A stretch of 11,135 nt of DNA from a candidate division TM6 bacterium UASB124 (GTDB lineage Bacteria > Dependentiae > Babeliae > Babeliales > RVW-14): assembly GCA_001468855.1 (NCBI GenBank), contig LDIV01000001.1, positions 795,202 to 806,336 of the forward strand, written 5' to 3'. Every line of letters begins with the position of its first letter. The stretch's first letter is position 1. Positions 1,014-9,883 of this stretch are shown piece after piece. The notes below the pieces were generated by a model. The model made no database searches. It was not told the DNA's origin and was given only the letters and a program-made list of their open reading frames with translations. The position numbers were made by a program, and so were the translations under genes.

Positions 1014-1568
1014 TTATTCCTTTTTAAAAGTGAAGAATCGACCTATCTTTGCAGAAAGACTATCGTATTTTTTTATTAATACTTCTAGGGCGTCAAAACG
1101 ACCTTCATGAAGATAATCTTTTTGACAAATCTCTCGAGCTTTTTCAATTGCCGGTTTATATTTTTTTGCAAAAAGTTGTTCAAATAATTGATTACCATTC
1201 TCCCTAAAGGAATAGGAATCGCTCTTTACTAAAACTTCTGCAACCTGCAAGCCTTCTTCATACTGACCTTGTACAATAAAATTACTTGTTTTATCCAGAA
1301 GCGTTTTTACAAGACCATAAAGATGATCCTTATCTTGATAGTTGCCCAAGATTACTATCGCTTGCTCACGTGCTTTCTTACAATCATTCTTAATAAGTTC
1401 TTCAAAAAGTTTTATTCCAAATTTACGAACCTCAAATGCGCGACTCTTTATTGCTCTATCAGAAATCTTTAGGGCTTCATCGAATTGTTTGCTTGCAATA
1501 ACCTTATTCAATTCGTCATAAAGAATTTTTAATAATCTCTTACATATCTCGGTCTTGTACTTATCATA
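1014..1568 (-). pseudogene. Detached C-terminal HEAT-like repeats of the giant exported protein
   Basis: This reading frame is open from 1568 down to a TAA at 1014-1016, about 184 codons. The only in-frame start is a TTG at 1511-1509 with no convincing Shine-Dalgarno sequence. It encodes about four helical repeats of the type seen in the neighbouring giant gene. For example, QFDEALKISDRAIKS, then R.FGIKLFEELIK, matches QFDMALGVAQDLVHI, then DLGIQLFDLLMKK, near the end of the upstream frame. The match continues upstream of the TTG (CKRLLKILYDEL against LFKSLFDKL), into the stretch that overlaps the end of the giant frame. The simplest reading is one gene split by a 1-base indel, with this segment its original C-terminus. 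It would make an independent protein of 165 residues only if TTG 1511 were really used. Confidence 0.75.
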
Positions 1569-4500
1569 TTAGAAGTAGGACTGGTCCAATCAAAATCGAT
1601 TGATATTAATAGAGCATTATCAAACGCTAATACAGAACCTTTTTTCATCAGCAAATCAAATAATTGTATACCCAAGTCTGATATCATTTTGTTAGGTATG
1701 TGAACTAAATCTTGAGCAACTCCTAGAGCCATATCAAATTGTCCGTTTTCAATAAGAATTCTCAACTTATCAAAAAGACTTTTAAATAACGTTTCAATAA
1801 GTCCTATATTTTGAAGTCCTATATTTTGAGAATTTTCCTGAGCAGCTTTAGATGCTCTATCTATTACAAAATCAAGGCATTCCTTATTGTTCATCAATAT
1901 AGCCGTAAGCTCTTCTAACAACTCCCGAGGTTTTATCTTTAAAGCAGCGCAAAAAACATCCTTATCATAACCTTTTTGCAAAACTTTTTTCCAAAAGTAG
2001 ACGCTCAATTTTTGTATTTCAACATCAAAATCAGATGATGTACACTGAAGAACTGTTATTGCATCTTGATTAGTAATACAATTCTTATCATAAAGCTCTT
2101 TAATCAAATCTAGACCATAACTTCTTACATATTTATTCTTATCATGAATAGCAATAAGTGCTTGTTCTTTTACCATATCTTGTCCAATAAGGTCTTGTTT
2201 AAAAAGTTCTTTAATTAGCAAAATTCCAAGCTCTCTCAGTCTATCATCAGCGCTTTTCATGGAATCTTGAGCAGTTTTGATTCCCTCTTGAATTGCTTTT
2301 TTATGTTTAAAAAGAAACTCAAATAATATGTTTCCATTGTGACTTCCATTGGATACACACAATTGAGCTATCTCTATCGCTTTCTCATAAGCCTTACCGT
2401 ACTCAAAAAGTTTTTCGAACAATTTTGTCCCAAGACTCCCTAATTCATTATAAGGATCAGACGCACTATCTCTAGTTGTAAAGTCACAAGCAATTTTTTC
2501 TAATTGATCATACTCACCATCTGATAGTTTTGTTTTCAAAAGCATTGTAAAAAGATCTATGGCATAATCAGGTGTGCTTTTTGTTTTTTCAATAAGCTCA
2601 ATAATTCTCTGAGCAGGAATGCAACTCTTTGCAAAAAGAGCTTGGGTTAAGGTGATGCAAAATCCCAGACGCTTAGACGCTAGAGCATCACCAGCAATTT
2701 TTTCAATTTCTTCGGCTTTTACAACGCCCCTTTCAAAAAGAGACAGGATTAATCTTTCAGCTGCATCATAATACCATTTGGATGACATCGCTTGCTCAGC
2801 AATTTTTTTTGCTTCTTCTATGGTTACAAACCCTTTTTCAAAAAGCAATCGAATCAATGCTATACCATACTCTTTAATATCAACGCATTTAATGGCAGCA
2901 TGTGCAATATATTTTATCTCTTCACATAATTGACCGTCTTGAATGCATTCTGCACATTTTTCTACAATCTTGCTCCAAATAATGTTCGCTGAATTAATCC
3001 TAGAGAAAACACTTGAGATTCCCTCTATAAGATATTGAGGATTTTTCTCTAAAACATTTTTTACACGCGCCAAGGATATGACACTTGACAAAGGCTTATA
3101 TGATTTGCCTACTGACCAATCACCCGCTGTGCTAAACATAAATGCAATACATGGTAATAAGTTATCTAAATCACAATTATGGGAGATTTTGAGCATAAAA
3201 CAAAGTTCACAAGATTTTTCAACAACACTATCTCTGTCAAGATTAACGCCATCAATTAAATCCAAAAAACGCCAAACAAAATCTTTTATTAGAGGCCACC
3301 TATCACGATTATTACCAAAAAACATAAATTCAATACGCGCATCTGGTCCATTTTTATCAGCAGAAAGTTTCAAACAAACGCCGTGATTGGCCATGCTAAC
3401 CTGATAGCGAGCAATAATACGAGATCCATTGTATTTCACACCTTGAAAATATGTACTTTTCAAATCCAGTAAAACCTTATTTATATCGTTGAATAATTTT
3501 GGAGCTTGTTTTTTCTTCAAAACCGACAGAGGCATTGCTTTGGCTATCCACCATAAAAGACTTCTGTGAATAAATGTAAACATATCTTCAAGTGTTTTAG
3601 GCAACGCTCTGTCAAAACCAGATCCTGTACAAGCTGCAATACTATTAACCGCACTAAAATCCTTAGATGGCAAAAATTGCTCTGCTCCTGTTGATGAAAT
3701 TTGGTCAAATCTTTCTTTGATCTTTTTTCTCGTGGATATTGATTTAGAAGCGACAACATAATGTAAATTTTTGCCGATGTCAAAAGATTCCAAAAGGCTA
3801 AAATATGGCACGAGTACTTGTTTGAAATTTTTTACATGTTGATCTTTGTTTTTATATTTATTTGAACTGGTAAGAGATTTTATTGATCTATCAAAAACAT
3901 CTACAAAATGTTCTATAAGATTTAAAAGAAATATTTTTACAAAAACGTTACCTTTTTCATCTAAATATTTTTTTAATTTGTCATCAACAAAAAATTTCAA
4001 AAATCTGTTTTTAAAATCTTCACATACCTTCTCAAAAGATTCTGGATCTTCCCACTTTTTTGAATCATAACAAGCAAGCGCTTTTTCTATGTTCAACATC
4101 TCTTCCAAAATATCTTTGTAAACATTCATTTCATATGAATAACGCTCTATTATGCTTTTTATCTCTTCTGGCTTATCTAAAGCAGGGTCCAGAAAAACAT
4201 TCATCCATCCTGACAATGCATCAAGTGATTGTATTTTGCTTATAAGCGCAACAAATGATTTTTTTAATTTTTCATTATCTGCATTTTGATTGTGTGCAAC
4301 ATATGTAATGACCTTAAGCCAATATTTTTCAAGCTCTGGTGAAAGTGCAACAGCACAACCTTTTTGTGCTATATCTAATAAATCAGGATATTTTTGTATC
4401 ATATGCCGCATTGATTCGTCTGAAATCTGCTTAATACATACCTCATTGCTCCAATTTTTTGTATCAAGAGACCTAAATGAATAACAATCAACATCTCCTG

Positions 4501-6709
4501 AGATTCTTTCTTGTATTAAAGCTGCTTCAAGAAAGTTAGTAAAATAGGCTCTCAAGCGAGGTTGATCAAAATATTCAATTATTTGGGCCATTAAATAATA
4601 AACGTAGCGAAAAAGTATTTCTGCTCGCTGATTATTCTGCTGACCACTAAAAGCAACAAATATACGATACCTTAGCGAATCTAATACCTTGCAACATAGT
4701 TCTTTATCTTTTGCATTCCAAATCATTTTTATAAGATTTTCTAATGGCACAGCTGGATAATACTCTGAAAAAGATCGTGAGATCTCATACTGTTGTGTTA
4801 TGCTCTGCGGAATCGATACATACTGATCAATTGGATGCTTACAGTAACCTTGCTCACTATCACACGTAGGCGTACTAACAACAATTCCTTGTTGTACATC
4901 AATCCATAATGAGAGCGGTTCTTGTGTAAGCCATTGATTGATAATCTCTATCTTTGGAATAATAACAACTGCTTTGCCAAAATGACGAAAGTTTGCCGCA
5001 GCATGCGATGTTTCTAGTGCATTTCCTTTCACTGCAACAACTTGGACTTTTTTTTGTTGATCAAATTGCTCATCTGTTTTTTGTTTATCAGTTTTTGTCA
5101 TAAATTTTTCCAGTGCCTCGTCCAATGTTTGCGCAACTATTATCTGATCTGCAGTGGTTATGTGCTTAACAGAAAAATCATCTGGTATCAACGTCGAACA
5201 TTGCACCTTCTGCGCATATTTTTTTACATCTTTTATATAAGAAGGGTTCTCTTTTTTGCTGCTATACACTAACGGACGTGCTTGCACCAAATAGATCGTC
5301 TTTGTATGTCGTTCATACACAAGTTCTATATCCATTGGCATGCGATATGTTATCTCGATTTCATCTGCAACTGCTTTAATTGCTAACAACGCATTGTCAT
5401 CCAATGCTGACTTATTTTCTAATTCTTTTCCATTGTCTTTGAATTCAAGTCCATACTTTCCATCGCTGGTTTGCAATGGAACAAGCCGTTCGGGTTTGTT
5501 TTTTATTCTTTTGTTTATCTGGGTTTTAGGACCTACATAATACGTATCTACTTCTACCTTGCTATCAACAACACCCTCGTTATGTCCAAATGATGCCTGT
5601 ATGTGAGTAATACCAGATGTTCTCCCTTTTGCTTCTTGGGTATAGACAACACATCCAACGGGAATCTCTTCCGTCTTGGCATTTGCTTTTTCACCAATCA
5701 TACGTTGCAATAACACTGCATAATGTGGCTTGGTTAAACGTATATTTTCCCCACTCTCTTTCCGTTGCTCCAATGATTTTTTACTAAAATATGATGCCAC
5801 AACATTACACATCGCTCGATCAATAGCATTTCTTTCAGGCGTTACATTTATCTCAGTATGATTACCACCAGCATTTGAACAGTTCTTGGTATCCTCTTGA
5901 CCAGAGCTACGCACCATTAATCTCCATCCCTTCCTACGTGCTTCTTCAATAAATACATCAATGGGCGTGTTAGACCGTTTGCTAGGTCTTTCAACTTCAG
6001 AAGTCAAACCTGCTTCACTACATGTCCTTTTTCTTCCAACTAAATTGCCGCCTCCTGTTGATGATAAACTTTGTTGAACTTCTTTATCAAAGTTTATTTG
6101 TTCACCTTCTTTTACTTGTGCACCTGCAATCAAGGCTCCTATTTCTTCCAATCTCTTTAAAAATTTATCCTCATTCTGCTCTTTGTATGTCTCTTCTATT
6201 TTTTTATCAAGGTTTGGAACAAGCGATTGCAAAAACAATTTTACGTCATCCGACGATATCCCTAAAAATTCCGGAATTGAAACACGCACTCCATATTGTT
6301 TTACTTTGTTTTGCAATGAAGGTTGAGAAATAATATCTTTCAACACACATAAATTTGCTGTCTTATTACCATATATAGCATTCTTTTGAAGCACTTCCGC
6401 TGGTTTAACAGTCGTTGCAACAGAACTGAAATTTGAATAAGAAGTCGATTGAGTCTTGCCATCTTGTTGGTCAATATCCATCGGTGAAGACAATAAAGAG
6501 CTATTGGAAAAGACTTGTTTGTGAGCTTGTGCTAATTGCATTGATGACGATAAACTTGAATTTGCTGAAGCATCTTGTCTTGGTGTATTGTCACCAATAA
6601 TTTCAAGGTCCGTGTTAACATCTAGATCATCATCCATGGCTATTACAAAGTTAGTGCTTGAAAGAGTGATAAGAGTCGAAACTAAAAAAAGTTTTTTAAA
6701 TGTGTTCAC
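1529..6709 (-). CDS. Giant exported PEP-synthase-like ATP-grasp and phosphohistidine protein with HEAT-like repeats
   Basis: About 1726 residues from GTG 6709. GGAGG at 6715-6719 lies 5 nt from this GTG but only 2 nt from ATG 6712, and TTG 6721 overlaps it. Residues 1-24 form a Sec signal peptide (KK, hydrophobic core, FVIA, then MDDD). Residues 110-485 resemble the PEP synthase/PPDK ATP-binding domain: GNKTANL; VRSS with downstream ED (266-273); LLQRMI; ASFGHNEGVV; DIELVYE (D460, E462); and VQARP (R478). Residues 555-620 resemble the swivelling phosphohistidine domain, with TSHAA carrying candidate His569. In this family ATP phosphorylates that His, which passes phosphate to an acceptor. The PEP/pyruvate-binding barrel is not seen. 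Instead there is an unassigned helical region (620-1215), with a small beta-like stretch near 1095-1150, then HEAT-like repeats from about 1216. The frame stops at 1529 in mid-array. The acceptor substrate is unknown. Rifampin phosphotransferase and glucan water dikinase also pair these two domains without the barrel. Confidence 0.85.
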   Translation of the reverse strand: MNTFKKLFLVSTLITLSSTNFVIAMDDDLDVNTDLEIIGDNTPRQDASANSSLSSSMQLAQAHKQVFSNSSLLSSPMDIDQQDGKTQSTSYSNFSSVATTVKPAEVLQKNAIYGNKTANLCVLKDIISQPSLQNKVKQYGVRVSIPEFLGISSDDVKLFLQSLVPNLDKKIEETYKEQNEDKFLKRLEEIGALIAGAQVKEGEQINFDKEVQQSLSSTGGGNLVGRKRTCSEAGLTSEVERPSKRSNTPIDVFIEEARRKGWRLMVRSSGQEDTKNCSNAGGNHTEINVTPERNAIDRAMCNVVASYFSKKSLEQRKESGENIRLTKPHYAVLLQRMIGEKANAKTEEIPVGCVVYTQEAKGRTSGITHIQASFGHNEGVVDSKVEVDTYYVGPKTQINKRIKNKPERLVPLQTSDGKYGLEFKDNGKELENKSALDDNALLAIKAVADEIEITYRMPMDIELVYERHTKTIYLVQARPLVYSSKKENPSYIKDVKKYAQKVQCSTLIPDDFSVKHITTADQIIVAQTLDEALEKFMTKTDKQKTDEQFDQQKKVQVVAVKGNALETSHAAANFRHFGKAVVIIPKIEIINQWLTQEPLSLWIDVQQGIVVSTPTCDSEQGYCKHPIDQYVSIPQSITQQYEISRSFSEYYPAVPLENLIKMIWNAKDKELCCKVLDSLRYRIFVAFSGQQNNQRAEILFRYVYYLMAQIIEYFDQPRLRAYFTNFLEAALIQERISGDVDCYSFRSLDTKNWSNEVCIKQISDESMRHMIQKYPDLLDIAQKGCAVALSPELEKYWLKVITYVAHNQNADNEKLKKSFVALISKIQSLDALSGWMNVFLDPALDKPEEIKSIIERYSYEMNVYKDILEEMLNIEKALACYDSKKWEDPESFEKVCEDFKNRFLKFFVDDKLKKYLDEKGNVFVKIFLLNLIEHFVDVFDRSIKSLTSSNKYKNKDQHVKNFKQVLVPYFSLLESFDIGKNLHYVVASKSISTRKKIKERFDQISSTGAEQFLPSKDFSAVNSIAACTGSGFDRALPKTLEDMFTFIHRSLLWWIAKAMPLSVLKKKQAPKLFNDINKVLLDLKSTYFQGVKYNGSRIIARYQVSMANHGVCLKLSADKNGPDARIEFMFFGNNRDRWPLIKDFVWRFLDLIDGVNLDRDSVVEKSCELCFMLKISHNCDLDNLLPCIAFMFSTAGDWSVGKSYKPLSSVISLARVKNVLEKNPQYLIEGISSVFSRINSANIIWSKIVEKCAECIQDGQLCEEIKYIAHAAIKCVDIKEYGIALIRLLFEKGFVTIEEAKKIAEQAMSSKWYYDAAERLILSLFERGVVKAEEIEKIAGDALASKRLGFCITLTQALFAKSCIPAQRIIELIEKTKSTPDYAIDLFTMLLKTKLSDGEYDQLEKIACDFTTRDSASDPYNELGSLGTKLFEKLFEYGKAYEKAIEIAQLCVSNGSHNGNILFEFLFKHKKAIQEGIKTAQDSMKSADDRLRELGILLIKELFKQDLIGQDMVKEQALIAIHDKNKYVRSYGLDLIKELYDKNCITNQDAITVLQCTSSDFDVEIQKLSVYFWKKVLQKGYDKDVFCAALKIKPRELLEELTAILMNNKECLDFVIDRASKAAQENSQNIGLQNIGLIETLFKSLFDKLRILIENGQFDMALGVAQDLVHIPNKMISDLGIQLFDLLMKKGSVLAFDNALLISIDFDWTSPTSNMISTRPRYVRDY
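1801..1830 (-). repeat. 15-bp in-frame tandem duplication
   Basis: Two adjacent copies, GTCCTATATTTTGAA at 1801-1815 and GTCCTATATTTTGAG at 1816-1830, differ at one base. Being 15 bp long, the duplication keeps the frame and produces the repeated residues QNIGLQNIGL inside the repeat array of the giant protein. It looks like a recent slippage event. Confidence 0.85.
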
Positions 6710-6714
6710 CATAA

Positions 6715-6719
6715 CCTCC
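6715..6719 (-). promoter_or_regulatory. Shine-Dalgarno site that sets the start of the giant gene
   Basis: On the minus strand the order is TTG, GAG, GTT, ATG, GTG. The GGAGG ribosome-binding core is too close to ATG 6712 (2 nt) but well spaced for GTG 6709 (5 nt), which favours the GTG. The choice changes only the first residues before the signal peptide. Confidence 0.6.
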
Positions 6720-6762
6720 AAAATTCACTAATTTTAAATATTAACGACAATTGTAATGTATT

Positions 6763-6814: not shown

Positions 6815-8293
6815 TTAATTCTTTTTTCCCGTAAACCAATTCCATAAACCTTGCACTAGTGAGCTACCACCACGAGTTGTCGCTGTTGTTGTGCTTGGAG
6901 AAGACGAGGCTGTCGATGCTGACGATAAACCGTTGTCATTTATCGATGATAATGTCGCCGCCGTTGATGCAGCTAAAGCAGGCAACGCTGATGTCATTGT
7001 TGAAGATGAAGTAGTTGGTGTTGGTGATGTATTTGATGTTTTTTTTGGGCCAGAACCGAACAAAACGGAACTTGGTAATACTGGTTGCTTATATTCATCT
7101 TCTTGTAATCTGCGAGCAATGTCTTCATCTGTTTCTCTTGAAGCGATTGATGATGACGATGAGGATGAAGGCGCCATTTTTTCACCCCTATCGTGTTCCT
7201 GACGAGACAACTCATAAGCTAATTTAAGATCTTCATCTTCTTTTTCATCTTTTTCATCATGTTTAACTTCATTGTATTTACTATCATTGAAAGATAGATA
7301 TGGGGTTGGCGCCGGTTGAACATGTCCACCATTGAGCTGCTGATCTAATGCTTTTGCATATGCACTATCATCAGCTAGCTGCTCAGCTGCTGACTCTTGG
7401 TGTAACTGTTCTGCCATTACATCATCATTATCCGTATTTGGTGCAATTTGAACAGAAACAGAAGACTTATCACCGCCAACGATTGAAATCTGATTACACA
7501 AGGCTTCAAATTGTTGAATTTTTTGTTTATCTGCAATCATATTAACAGATAAACAATCATTCTGATTAACCTGAGCAATAAGTTCCATAACAACTTGTTT
7601 AAGATTATTCATTAATTGTGTAATTATTGGATTTTTTTCTTCCAACAAGGCTTTAATTTCTTTATCCTCTTGCAATGTTTTTAATGCATTCAAAATATTG
7701 GTAAGTTGCTTAAAAATTGCATCAGAAATAGTAGCCATATGTTTGAGTGTTTCATCATAATCAAGTTGACGTACTACAGCCAATACTGCATCAATGTCTA
7801 TGCTTGCTATCTTAACTCTTTGTTCAAGAATTAATCGCGCTTGTTCTTCTCGTTGTCTTTGTTCTAATTCTTTCTGCCTTTGTTCAGCTTCTAGTCGTGC
7901 TTGTTCTGCCTTTTGTGCAGCCATTTGTCTATTAAATTCTCTAGCCTTTTCTGATTGAATTCGGCGGCGTTCTTGTTCTTGTTGATCTAGTACATCAGGT
8001 TGAACATTCGTTGGTGGCGTTGACTCTTTTTCTTTTTTTTGTTCTTCATATGATGTTGATTCTTTTTTTTCTTCTTCCTTTTTTTCTTGTTGCTCTTGTT
8101 CTTTCTGCTCACGTTGCAAGCGTTCCAAATGAGCACGATAACGTTCTGCTTGCAGCCTTCTGACATCATCTATTTCATGATCTTGTTCTTTCTTCTCATC
8201 TTGGGGTCCTTCTTGCTTCTTCATTGAATAGACAGATGATTCTGCAACCAAACAGCTTAAAAATACAAGTGATAAAATATGTAAACGTTTCAT
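6815..8293 (-). CDS. Exported coiled-coil protein with ubiquitin-interacting-like motifs
   Basis: 492 residues. ATG 8293 is preceded by GGAGG at 8303-8307, spacing 9. Residues 1-23 are a Sec signal peptide (MKRLHILSL to SVYS, then M24). Residues 30-160 are a Q/E/K/R-rich coiled coil; 160-275 form a more ordinary helical domain. Residues 352-366 read EDEDLKLAYELSRQE, which fits the UIM consensus: acidic run, Leu356, Ala359, Ser363, Glu366. At 389-400, DEDIARRLQEDE resembles the inverted ubiquitin motif (MIU). DDVMAEQLHQE (290-300) and DSAYAKALDQQ (309-319) show the same acidic, hydrophobic-Ala-x-x-Leu pattern. A Ser/Thr-rich linker (374-475) leads to an aromatic basic tail, GLWNWFTGKKN. No enzyme signature is seen. 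Binding to host ubiquitin is inferred from motifs only; short motifs in charged helices can arise by chance. The opposite-strand frames here are compositional shadows. Confidence 0.85.
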   Translation of the reverse strand: MKRLHILSLVFLSCLVAESSVYSMKKQEGPQDEKKEQDHEIDDVRRLQAERYRAHLERLQREQKEQEQQEKKEEEKKESTSYEEQKKEKESTPPTNVQPDVLDQQEQERRRIQSEKAREFNRQMAAQKAEQARLEAEQRQKELEQRQREEQARLILEQRVKIASIDIDAVLAVVRQLDYDETLKHMATISDAIFKQLTNILNALKTLQEDKEIKALLEEKNPIITQLMNNLKQVVMELIAQVNQNDCLSVNMIADKQKIQQFEALCNQISIVGGDKSSVSVQIAPNTDNDDVMAEQLHQESAAEQLADDSAYAKALDQQLNGGHVQPAPTPYLSFNDSKYNEVKHDEKDEKEDEDLKLAYELSRQEHDRGEKMAPSSSSSSSIASRETDEDIARRLQEDEYKQPVLPSSVLFGSGPKKTSNTSPTPTTSSSTMTSALPALAASTAATLSSINDNGLSSASTASSSPSTTTATTRGGSSLVQGLWNWFTGKKN

Positions 8294-8354
8294 TAGGTAT
8301 AACCTCCGATTAAAGGTAGCTTAAGCAATTAGATACAATATTTAGTTTCTTATT

Positions 8355-8692: not shown

Positions 8693-9085
8693 ATGAAAAA
8701 ATATTGGACTGGTACGCATACAAAGTACAGGTTAATGATACACATAGTTTGGTTGCCAATCTATAGAAAAAGAGTTTTGAAGGGGGGCTTGGCCAAAAGA
8801 ATGGAAGAACTGTTGAGAGAATATGCTGATGTAAATAGATGGAATATCGAAGAATTGAATATTCAGCCCGATCATGTTCATATGGTGTTGCAATTTCGTC
8901 CCGATATAGCAGTAAGTAAGGTAGTGCAGCTGTTTAAGGGAAAAAGCAGCAAAATAATAAGACAGGAATTCCCTGGGTTAGAAGAAGTTTACTGGGGAGA
9001 TAGTTTCTGGGCAGATGGATTTTTTGCAGAAACAGTGGGTTCGGTAAGTTTGGATGCAATTAAGAAATATGTTAGTAGCCAATGA
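8693..9085 (+). CDS. tnpA: IS200/IS605-family Y1 (HUH) transposase
   Basis: 130 residues, close to the usual 130-155 for TnpA. These enzymes move single-stranded DNA by nicking hairpin-flanked ends through a phosphotyrosine bond. The N-terminus (THTKYRLMIHIVWLPIYRKRVL, residues 8-29) matches the family's conserved opening strand and YRRKVL-type block. The metal-binding HUH motif is PDHVHMVLQF with His61 and His63, and the likely nucleophile is Tyr126 in IKKYVSSQ. All expected residues are present, so the protein could be active, although it ends soon after the tyrosine helix. ATG 8693 lacks a good Shine-Dalgarno sequence, which is common for IS genes and usually keeps expression low. It is transcribed opposite to the exported-protein genes on its left and has no apparent functional link to them. 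Confidence 0.92.
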   Translation: MKKYWTGTHTKYRLMIHIVWLPIYRKRVLKGGLAKRMEELLREYADVNRWNIEELNIQPDHVHMVLQFRPDIAVSKVVQLFKGKSSKIIRQEFPGLEEVYWGDSFWADGFFAETVGSVSLDAIKKYVSSQ

Positions 9086-9409: not shown

Positions 9410-9883
9410 ATGAATAAAGTTCTTAGATTATGTAGCCTTTGTATTTGTGCCTTAGCTGTTTCAAACGCATATGCTAAACAAGAGGCAAAAACACCCATGT
9501 TGGATCAGCCAAAAGAATTAAGCGAAAAAATTGATGCAAAAAAAAGTTGGCGGCAAGCCAAACGAGAAGATTGGCGTAAGGCAAGAGATGAAAGACGAGC
9601 TCAACGTGATAAGCAACGTGAAGAACGACAAAAGGAAATGGATAAGAAATGTGAAGAGTTAGGTAAAAAATTGGATGAATTTAAATCCAAAATTAATGAT
9701 GTAAAAGATGATGCAACTAAAAAGGCGCTTACAAGTGTGCACGAATATCTACAAATGAAACGCGAGATGTGGCAGGAATATAAGACAAAGATGAGAGAAA
9801 AGGGTAAAGAGTGGCGTGAAAAAAGACAGGAACGCAGAGAAAGTCGTGCGCAACGTCGTGAAGGTAGACGTGATTCGAAATAA
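9410..9883 (+). CDS. Small exported, highly charged helical protein of unknown function
   Basis: 157 residues. GGAG at 9401-9404 lies 5 nt before ATG 9410, supporting this start. Residues 1-22 form a Sec signal peptide (MNKVLRLCSLCICALAVSNAYA, described as n-region, hydrophobic core and an AYA cleavage motif); Cys8, Cys11 and Cys13 fall inside it. There is no lipobox directly before a cysteine at the cleavage site. The mature part is almost entirely Lys, Arg, Glu, Asp and Gln, with regular RR/RE/WR patterns at 45-80 and 118-157, and a less basic middle (81-115) containing Cys81. It probably forms one long helix or a coiled coil and is strongly basic overall. Periplasmic chaperones such as Skp and Spy are also small, exported and helical, but I see no specific match. 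Nucleic-acid or membrane binding is equally possible. It has its own promoter and terminator, so it is likely monocistronic. Confidence 0.85.
   Translation: MNKVLRLCSLCICALAVSNAYAKQEAKTPMLDQPKELSEKIDAKKSWRQAKREDWRKARDERRAQRDKQREERQKEMDKKCEELGKKLDEFKSKINDVKDDATKKALTSVHEYLQMKREMWQEYKTKMREKGKEWREKRQERRESRAQRREGRRDSK

Follow-up and report, generated by a model that had tools for sequence, protein, structure and literature searches.

We identified a gene whose 492-amino-acid product is, on balance, probably an exported, apparently non-enzymatic, multivalent reader of host ubiquitin. The gene lies on the minus strand of the stretch of DNA analysed here (the window; 11,135 nucleotides). UIMs and MIUs are short helices that grip ubiquitin in animal and fungal proteins. 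The C-terminal half of the 492-aa protein would carry such ubiquitin-binding helices, namely a canonical ubiquitin-interacting motif (UIM), an MIU-like helix and perhaps two weaker ones, strung on flexible linkers, and the N-terminal coiled coil could multimerise the protein. It would be an exported protein, probably of a Dependentiae (TM6) bacterium, whose genome encodes it and at least one paralogue.

The gene (6815..8293; all coordinates of the protein's parts given below are likewise on the minus strand) is an intact open reading frame from an ATG. Direct reading shows a ribosome-binding-site-like GGAGG nine bases upstream of the ATG (8303..8307), and two homologues match the protein at both ends; we therefore rejected a wrong-reading-frame artefact. 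E, Q, A and K are abundant in the protein. From its N to its C terminus it has what looks like a signal, then a coiled coil, a conserved part predicted to be helical and, in the tail, separate predicted helices set in low-complexity linkers. A signal-peptide-like N terminus (residues 1-23; 8225..8293), called by eye, is followed by two long, coiled-coil-like helices predicted by AlphaFold, one charged (residues 34-89; 8027..8194) and one rich in Q, E, R and K (residues 102-176; 7766..7990), and by a central region that is also predicted to be helical (residues 166-275; 7469..7798). The N termini of all three family members (the 492-aa protein and the two relatives described below) look signal-peptide-like by eye; a possible cleavage site lies between MKRLHILSLVFLSCLVAESSVYS and M in the 492-aa protein (VYS-M), with VVA-M and IMA-M at the same place in the relatives, and the 492-aa protein is apparently exported. 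Beyond the motifs described below lies a Ser/Thr-rich tail (residues 403-480; 6854..7087) with 21 Ser and 15 Thr among its 78 residues, modelled with low confidence. The alignment shows a conserved aromatic-basic C-terminal end, LWNWFTGKK (residues 483-491; 6821..6847), which reads LWKWFFKK and IWNWFKKK in the relatives and sits beyond the variable Ser/Thr-rich tail; it is possibly a sorting or membrane-contact signal. Searches with the whole 492-aa protein returned no Pfam family at E ≤ 1 and no NCBIfam family at E ≤ 0.01, and on these grounds we rejected a recognisable enzyme as the explanation of the gene. Because neither search found an enzyme domain, we refer to the protein as a reader.

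Searching ~5.8 billion proteins (7,987 candidates scored) gave at least two relatives at E ≤ 0.01 besides the protein itself. P0002 (414 aa) is 46% identical across 78% of the query, and is taken as a paralogue encoded on the same contig as the gene for the 492-aa protein; P0003 (509 aa), encoded on a 2,369-base contig, is 39% identical across 78% of the query. A family profile masked by hand at its low-complexity parts, with all motif segments retained, returned the same three strong matches and at least five weak ones with E-values from 0.048 to 10 (7,993 candidates scored). Local alignment placed four of the five weak matches at ARRLQ-like stretches; the fifth, P0007, which bears the source name RIO kinase 1, aligned at both a UIM-like and an MIU-like stretch. 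In P0007 the UIM-like stretch comes before the MIU-like one, the same order as in the 492-aa protein, and the spacing is similar. Two of the five bear organism names, Nucella lapillus, a mollusc, and Umbelopsis, a fungus. The family alignment had no match among genome contigs or among viral contigs, an absence that is weak evidence given that each search used two peptide patterns, one of them low-complexity.

Conservation was counted as invariant columns across the three sequences (the 492-aa protein, P0002 and P0003). Such columns make up 9 of 18 in the UIM segment and 9 of 14 in the MIU segment; the corresponding counts are 2 of 34 in the linker at residues 322-349, 4 of 19 in the linker at 368-386 and 9 of 117 in the Ser/Thr tail. 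The region at 40-165 has 32 invariant columns of 132, and the central region 52 of 115. The motifs are not the sole constrained part of the protein, since the central region is conserved too.

The original prediction held that residues 353-366 match the UIM at all key positions, and the match proved to be canonical in each of the three sequences. All key positions are present in EDEDLKLAYELSRQE (residues 352-366), and the motif itself, DEDLKLAYELSRQE (residues 353-366; 7196..7237), falls in a predicted helix at 349-371. All three proteins have the residues that define a UIM, with an acidic patch, a hydrophobic residue, Ala, Ser and a further acidic residue spaced as in the motif, and the low-confidence models of the 492-aa protein and P0003 both place them in a helix. 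D353, D355, A359, L362, S363 and E366 are invariant, and position 356 is L, V and L, respectively; free variation at Ala359 and Ser363 had been named beforehand as evidence against the prediction, and neither residue varies. The Pfam UIM model (PF02809) matched a 36-aa piece of the protein at 20.4 bits (E 4.2e-4) and a 127-aa piece at 16.5 bits (E 0.0072). Cut pieces of the three family members scored 20.4, 17.1 and 16.7 bits, short of the curated cut-off of 21, and when P0002 and P0003 were scanned whole, Pfam did not list the UIM at E ≤ 10 in either. None of ten shuffled versions of the 127-aa region matched the UIM, and three matched other families (E 0.008, 0.015 and 1.1). Since shuffled sequences reach similar E-values with other families, the value of 0.0072 is unimpressive alone.

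We compared the motif with the sequences of solved structures (177,635 sequences; matches listed at E ≤ 10). A single UIM piece matched ataxin-3 (E 0.19) and Vps27 (E 1.3), and a query differing by one letter outside the motif matched ataxin-3 (E 0.082) and STAM2 (E 0.3); the matches of these single pieces were all UIM proteins, none of them significant. A UIM profile built from the three sequences matched ataxin-3 at E 9.2e-5 and STAM2 at E 4.8e-4, its remaining two matches being AN1-type zinc finger protein 2B (E 0.67) and Utp14 (E 0.77). The hand-masked family profile gave two matches only, STAM2 (E 1.4e-4) and ataxin-3 (E 0.092), both over the UIM. Whole unmasked P0003 matched STAM2 (E 0.013) and DOPA decarboxylase (E 1.6). 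With the whole unmasked 492-aa protein, no UIM protein was among the matches at E ≤ 10; there were five weak matches (E 1.2 to 7.4), to four antibody chains and a zinc finger protein, covering parts of residues 372-469. This null result counts against the UIM, yet the motif takes up little of a long, low-complexity protein. Against UIMs of known structure, similarity is significant by profile, not by the unmasked 492-aa protein alone. The profile search that had been proposed as a check was thus favourable where family profiles were used, which recovered ataxin-3 and STAM2, and unfavourable at the Pfam cut-off and with the unmasked whole protein. We conclude that the predicted UIM at residues 353-366 is real and conserved.

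The MIU-like motif, ETDEDIARRLQEDE (residues 387-400; 7094..7135), lies in a predicted helix at 389-401 and had been described as close to the inverted MIU form. ETDExxARRLQ occurs in all three sequences and fits the MIU pattern of an acidic, hydrophobic, Ala-x-x-Leu-Gln, acidic helix, and P0003 holds a second MIU-like copy, TDEQIAQELQEEE. Among solved structures, the MINDY-1 MIU peptide was the sole match of a single MIU piece (E 1.1) and the top of three matches of another (E 1.1), ahead of two to the insulin receptor (E 2.2 and 3.5). These E-values for MINDY-1 are not significant. A profile of four MIU copies, in contrast, did not recover MINDY-1 from the solved structures; it matched ERC2 (E 0.16), rabenosyn-5 (E 0.81 and 4.3) and a seed globulin (E 3.0). 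Pfam assigned no ubiquitin-binding family to the MIU pieces, matching the copy in the 492-aa protein to DUF2555 (E 0.039) and giving no match for the extra copy in P0003. We conclude that an MIU at residues 387-400 is moderately supported by its sequence, and that this support is weaker than that for the UIM.

Three further helices with an acidic, Ala-x-x-Leu pattern had been claimed in addition to the UIM. All three units are present, at residues 290-300, 309-319 and 387-400, but the first two share one continuous helix, predicted by AlphaFold at 289-321. These two, DDVMAEQLHQE (residues 290-300; 7394..7426) and DSAYAKALDQQ (residues 309-319; 7337..7369), are weakly MIU-like units of the form [DE]-x3-A-x2-[LV], and the relatives retain their key residues. 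Invariant columns number 3 of 15 in the first half of the helix (289-303) and 5 of 15 in the second half (307-321); the linker preceding the helix has 5 of 15, above the count for 289-303. A piece covering helix 289-321 had no match in solved structures or in Pfam, and, with database support lacking, we rejected both units as established MIUs. They are weak candidates for MIU-like helices.

Two patterns, both picked after viewing the sequences, were counted in the family and in shuffled proteins. The UIM pattern [DE].[DE][LIVM]..A...S..[DE] occurs once in each family member, as against 0.0036, 0.0022 and 0.0026 times per shuffled protein. The looser pattern [DE]-x3-A-x2-[LV]-x2-[EDQ], among whose matches the UIM itself counts, occurs 4, 4 and 5 times, as against 0.25, 0.17 and 0.15 times per shuffled protein, and none of 5000 shuffles reached the observed count; being post hoc, these counts indicate non-random spacing, not ubiquitin binding.

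The AlphaFold model of the 492-aa protein was built from the three-sequence alignment, and P0003 was modelled too; because mean pLDDT was low (53.6 for the 492-aa protein and 50.8 for P0003) we used the models for secondary structure only. The helices in the 492-aa protein span residues 3-24, 34-89 and 102-176, four more stretches up to residue 273, and residues 289-321, 349-371, 389-401 and 478-487; the tail helices of P0003 span 275-306, 345-358, 382-399, 435-449 and 498-508. Separate helices are predicted at the UIM and at the MIU in both of these low-confidence models, and over residues 285-400, the stretch for which a helix prediction had been proposed as a check, the model of the 492-aa protein has helices at 289-321, 349-371 and 389-401. 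A fold search with the low-confidence model of the 492-aa protein gave 64 matches at E ≤ 10, none of them at E ≤ 0.001 (best E 0.22).

Alternatively, the motifs may have arisen incidentally in a structural, exported coiled-coil protein whose helices are acidic and abundant in Gln and Ala, a case of convergence without ubiquitin binding. A protein so rich in E, Q, A and K would lend itself to this, and it would accord with the chance families found at E 0.008 and 0.015 in two of the ten shuffles, with the ordinary coiled coils picked up by the MIU profile, with the two of four helical units that have no database support and with the failure of the unmasked 492-aa protein to match a UIM structure. 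However, the UIM family profiles reach ~1e-4 against two different UIM proteins, the key residues of the UIM are kept while the flanking linkers diverge, and P0003 has an added motif copy; we therefore regard convergence as rather unlikely. Still less probable, in our judgement, is a protein that acts on the bacterial side, at the periplasm or cell surface, for example in the envelope or in adhesion, and never meets host ubiquitin. The sole visible signal is Sec-type, and a Sec-type signal brings proteins only to the periplasm in two-membrane cells; the conserved W-x-W-F-x-K-K C-terminal end, too, might be a sorting or membrane signal. Against a bacterial site of action, no purpose that a UIM might serve within a bacterial cell is known to us. 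Moreover, signal-peptide proteins of Dependentiae have been proposed to act in the host (PMC6561590, PMC4378268), and in Chromulinavorax 44% of coding sequences carry a putative signal peptide (PMC6561590).

The best alternative partner to ubiquitin is Atg8. The helices might bind another ubiquitin-like protein, above all Atg8 at its UIM-docking site, in which case autophagy would be blocked or diverted instead of ubiquitin being read; the canonical UIM spacing suits ubiquitin best, and we think such binding improbable. Atg8 reportedly has a surface that resembles the hydrophobic patch of ubiquitin and binds UIM-like sequences, and ataxin-3, the top structural match of our UIM profile, is named among the users of that site (PMC7615515). 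The same source, however, describes structural data for UIM-like sequences at the site as not yet available, and its text names no MIU there (PMC7615515). The odds that we attach to these alternatives are not mutually exclusive.

The neighbourhood of the gene offers some indication of its setting. A CYTH protein encoded in the window (26 matches including itself) has its closest non-self match at 47% identity; the best of its matches that bear an organism name is candidate division TM6 bacterium GW2011_GWF2_38_10 at 44%, followed by Uhrbacteria at 37% and Patescibacteria at 34% and 32%. The match to TM6, thin evidence from one gene, would fit the character of a phylum of eukaryote parasites rich in exported proteins. 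At 1529-6721 (minus strand) lies a gene for a protein of 1730 aa. Its start resembles a signal peptide, its N-terminal part matches the PPDK/PEP-synthase ATP-binding domain (PF01326, E 2.1e-31), and a long region beyond has a weak Cnd1 match only (E 0.032). Export would be unexpected for a dikinase-like protein; a search for this neighbour in genome contigs gave no match. Directly downstream, a 165-aa open reading frame with a TTG start (1014-1511, minus strand) has a weak HEAT_2 match (E 0.022), and its helical repeats resemble those of the 1730-aa frame, possibly continuing the same repeat array. Two transposase genes are on the plus strand, an IS982-type at 120-812, whose match to the model begins only at model position 34, and an IS200/IS605-type at 8693-9085, which is near full model length and adjoins the UIM gene. 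Also on the plus strand, 9410-9883 encodes a protein of 157 aa whose start resembles a signal peptide and whose body is highly charged and rich in K, E and R; its family matches are weak only. Rfam and tRNA scans of the whole window had no match, and promoter-like sites in it number 11, compared with 9.5 expected from shuffling.

The 492-aa protein has the same Acidic-Leu-x-x-Ala-x-x-x-Ser-x-x-Glu helix as the eukaryotic UIM proteins ataxin-3, STAM2 and Vps27. Unlike them, it is bacterial and has a signal-peptide-like start and a coiled coil. The companions of those eukaryotic UIMs are Josephin, VHS, SH3 and FYVE domains, and Pfam found no such companion domain in the 492-aa protein at E ≤ 1. 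MINDY-1, with TDLELAQQLQQEEYQQ, has a D-x3-A-x2-L-Q core in common with the MIU-like helix of the 492-aa protein; the latter protein differs from MIU proteins in that no catalytic or RING domain and no profile-level match was found, RNF168 and Rabex-5 being considered by description only. Ala-to-Gly changes in both MIUs of RNF168 are reported to leave ubiquitin binding markedly lower (PMC2699339). In ZUFSP, the Leu/Gln pair of the MIU is termed highly conserved, and the double mutant of that pair is described as having activity equal to wild type (PMC5824887); an MIU therefore need not matter for function. The Leu/Gln pair is present in the MIU-like helix of the 492-aa protein.

Other bacteria may have deubiquitinase effectors that carry additional helices for binding ubiquitin. 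OtDUB of Orientia tsutsugamushi is likewise bacterial and has a dedicated ubiquitin-binding domain, but this domain is described as unique and is paired with a protease (PMC7214410), whereas no enzyme domain was found in the 492-aa protein. Dependentiae are protist parasites with reported ubiquitin-system genes (PMC4378268). Babela massiliensis, probably of the same phylum as the source of the 492-aa protein, encodes an F-box protein, a RING protein, Ulp1-like proteins and three C19 peptidases described as secreted; the ubiquitin system of the host is the proposed target of these proteins (PMC4378268), a setting that suits the capture of host ubiquitin as originally predicted. These are writers, adaptors and erasers, unlike the proposed reader, and the term UIM occurs 0 times in the main text of that paper (PMC4378268). 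Literature surveyed by title and the start of the abstract, with most subscription journals outside its coverage, contained no UIM- or MIU-bearing Dependentiae protein. What is new here is the combination of a UIM and an MIU-like helix in an apparently non-enzymatic bacterial exported protein; the components are known singly in eukaryotes.

We infer that the 492-aa protein is exported, would be delivered into the cytosol of the host and would form oligomers, and that it is likely to bind ubiquitin. Inside a protist host, an oligomer that presents several helices of low affinity would gain enough avidity to hold ubiquitin or its chains, with the Ile44 patch as the contact surface; an anatomy of weak helices, flexible links and a coiled coil suggests as much. 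Since the searches revealed no catalytic domain, the protein most likely serves as a reader, which would either mask ubiquitin deposited on the bacterium or on its vacuole, or tether ubiquitinated host proteins or membranes. A wider proposal, which we put forward tentatively and with considerable doubt, is that there is a family of stand-alone, non-enzymatic, oligomeric bacterial ubiquitin readers in which the number and spacing of tandem UIMs and MIUs vary from one relative to another. They would coat ubiquitin chains attached to the parasite or its vacuole and so conceal these chains from the autophagy receptors of the host, or they would stick ubiquitinated membranes of the host round the parasite. 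Conserved copies of the motifs in two related proteins suggest that the parasite may read or mask host ubiquitin marks. Bacterial ubiquitin tools in the sampled literature mostly write or erase the mark; an enzyme-free reader assembled from eukaryote-style short helices would, if confirmed, be a further bacterial strategy. The idea is easy to test, since the helices are short and a single Ala change should weaken each. If it is true, the protein would also open a way to study how a phylum of which few members have been cultivated lives with its hosts.
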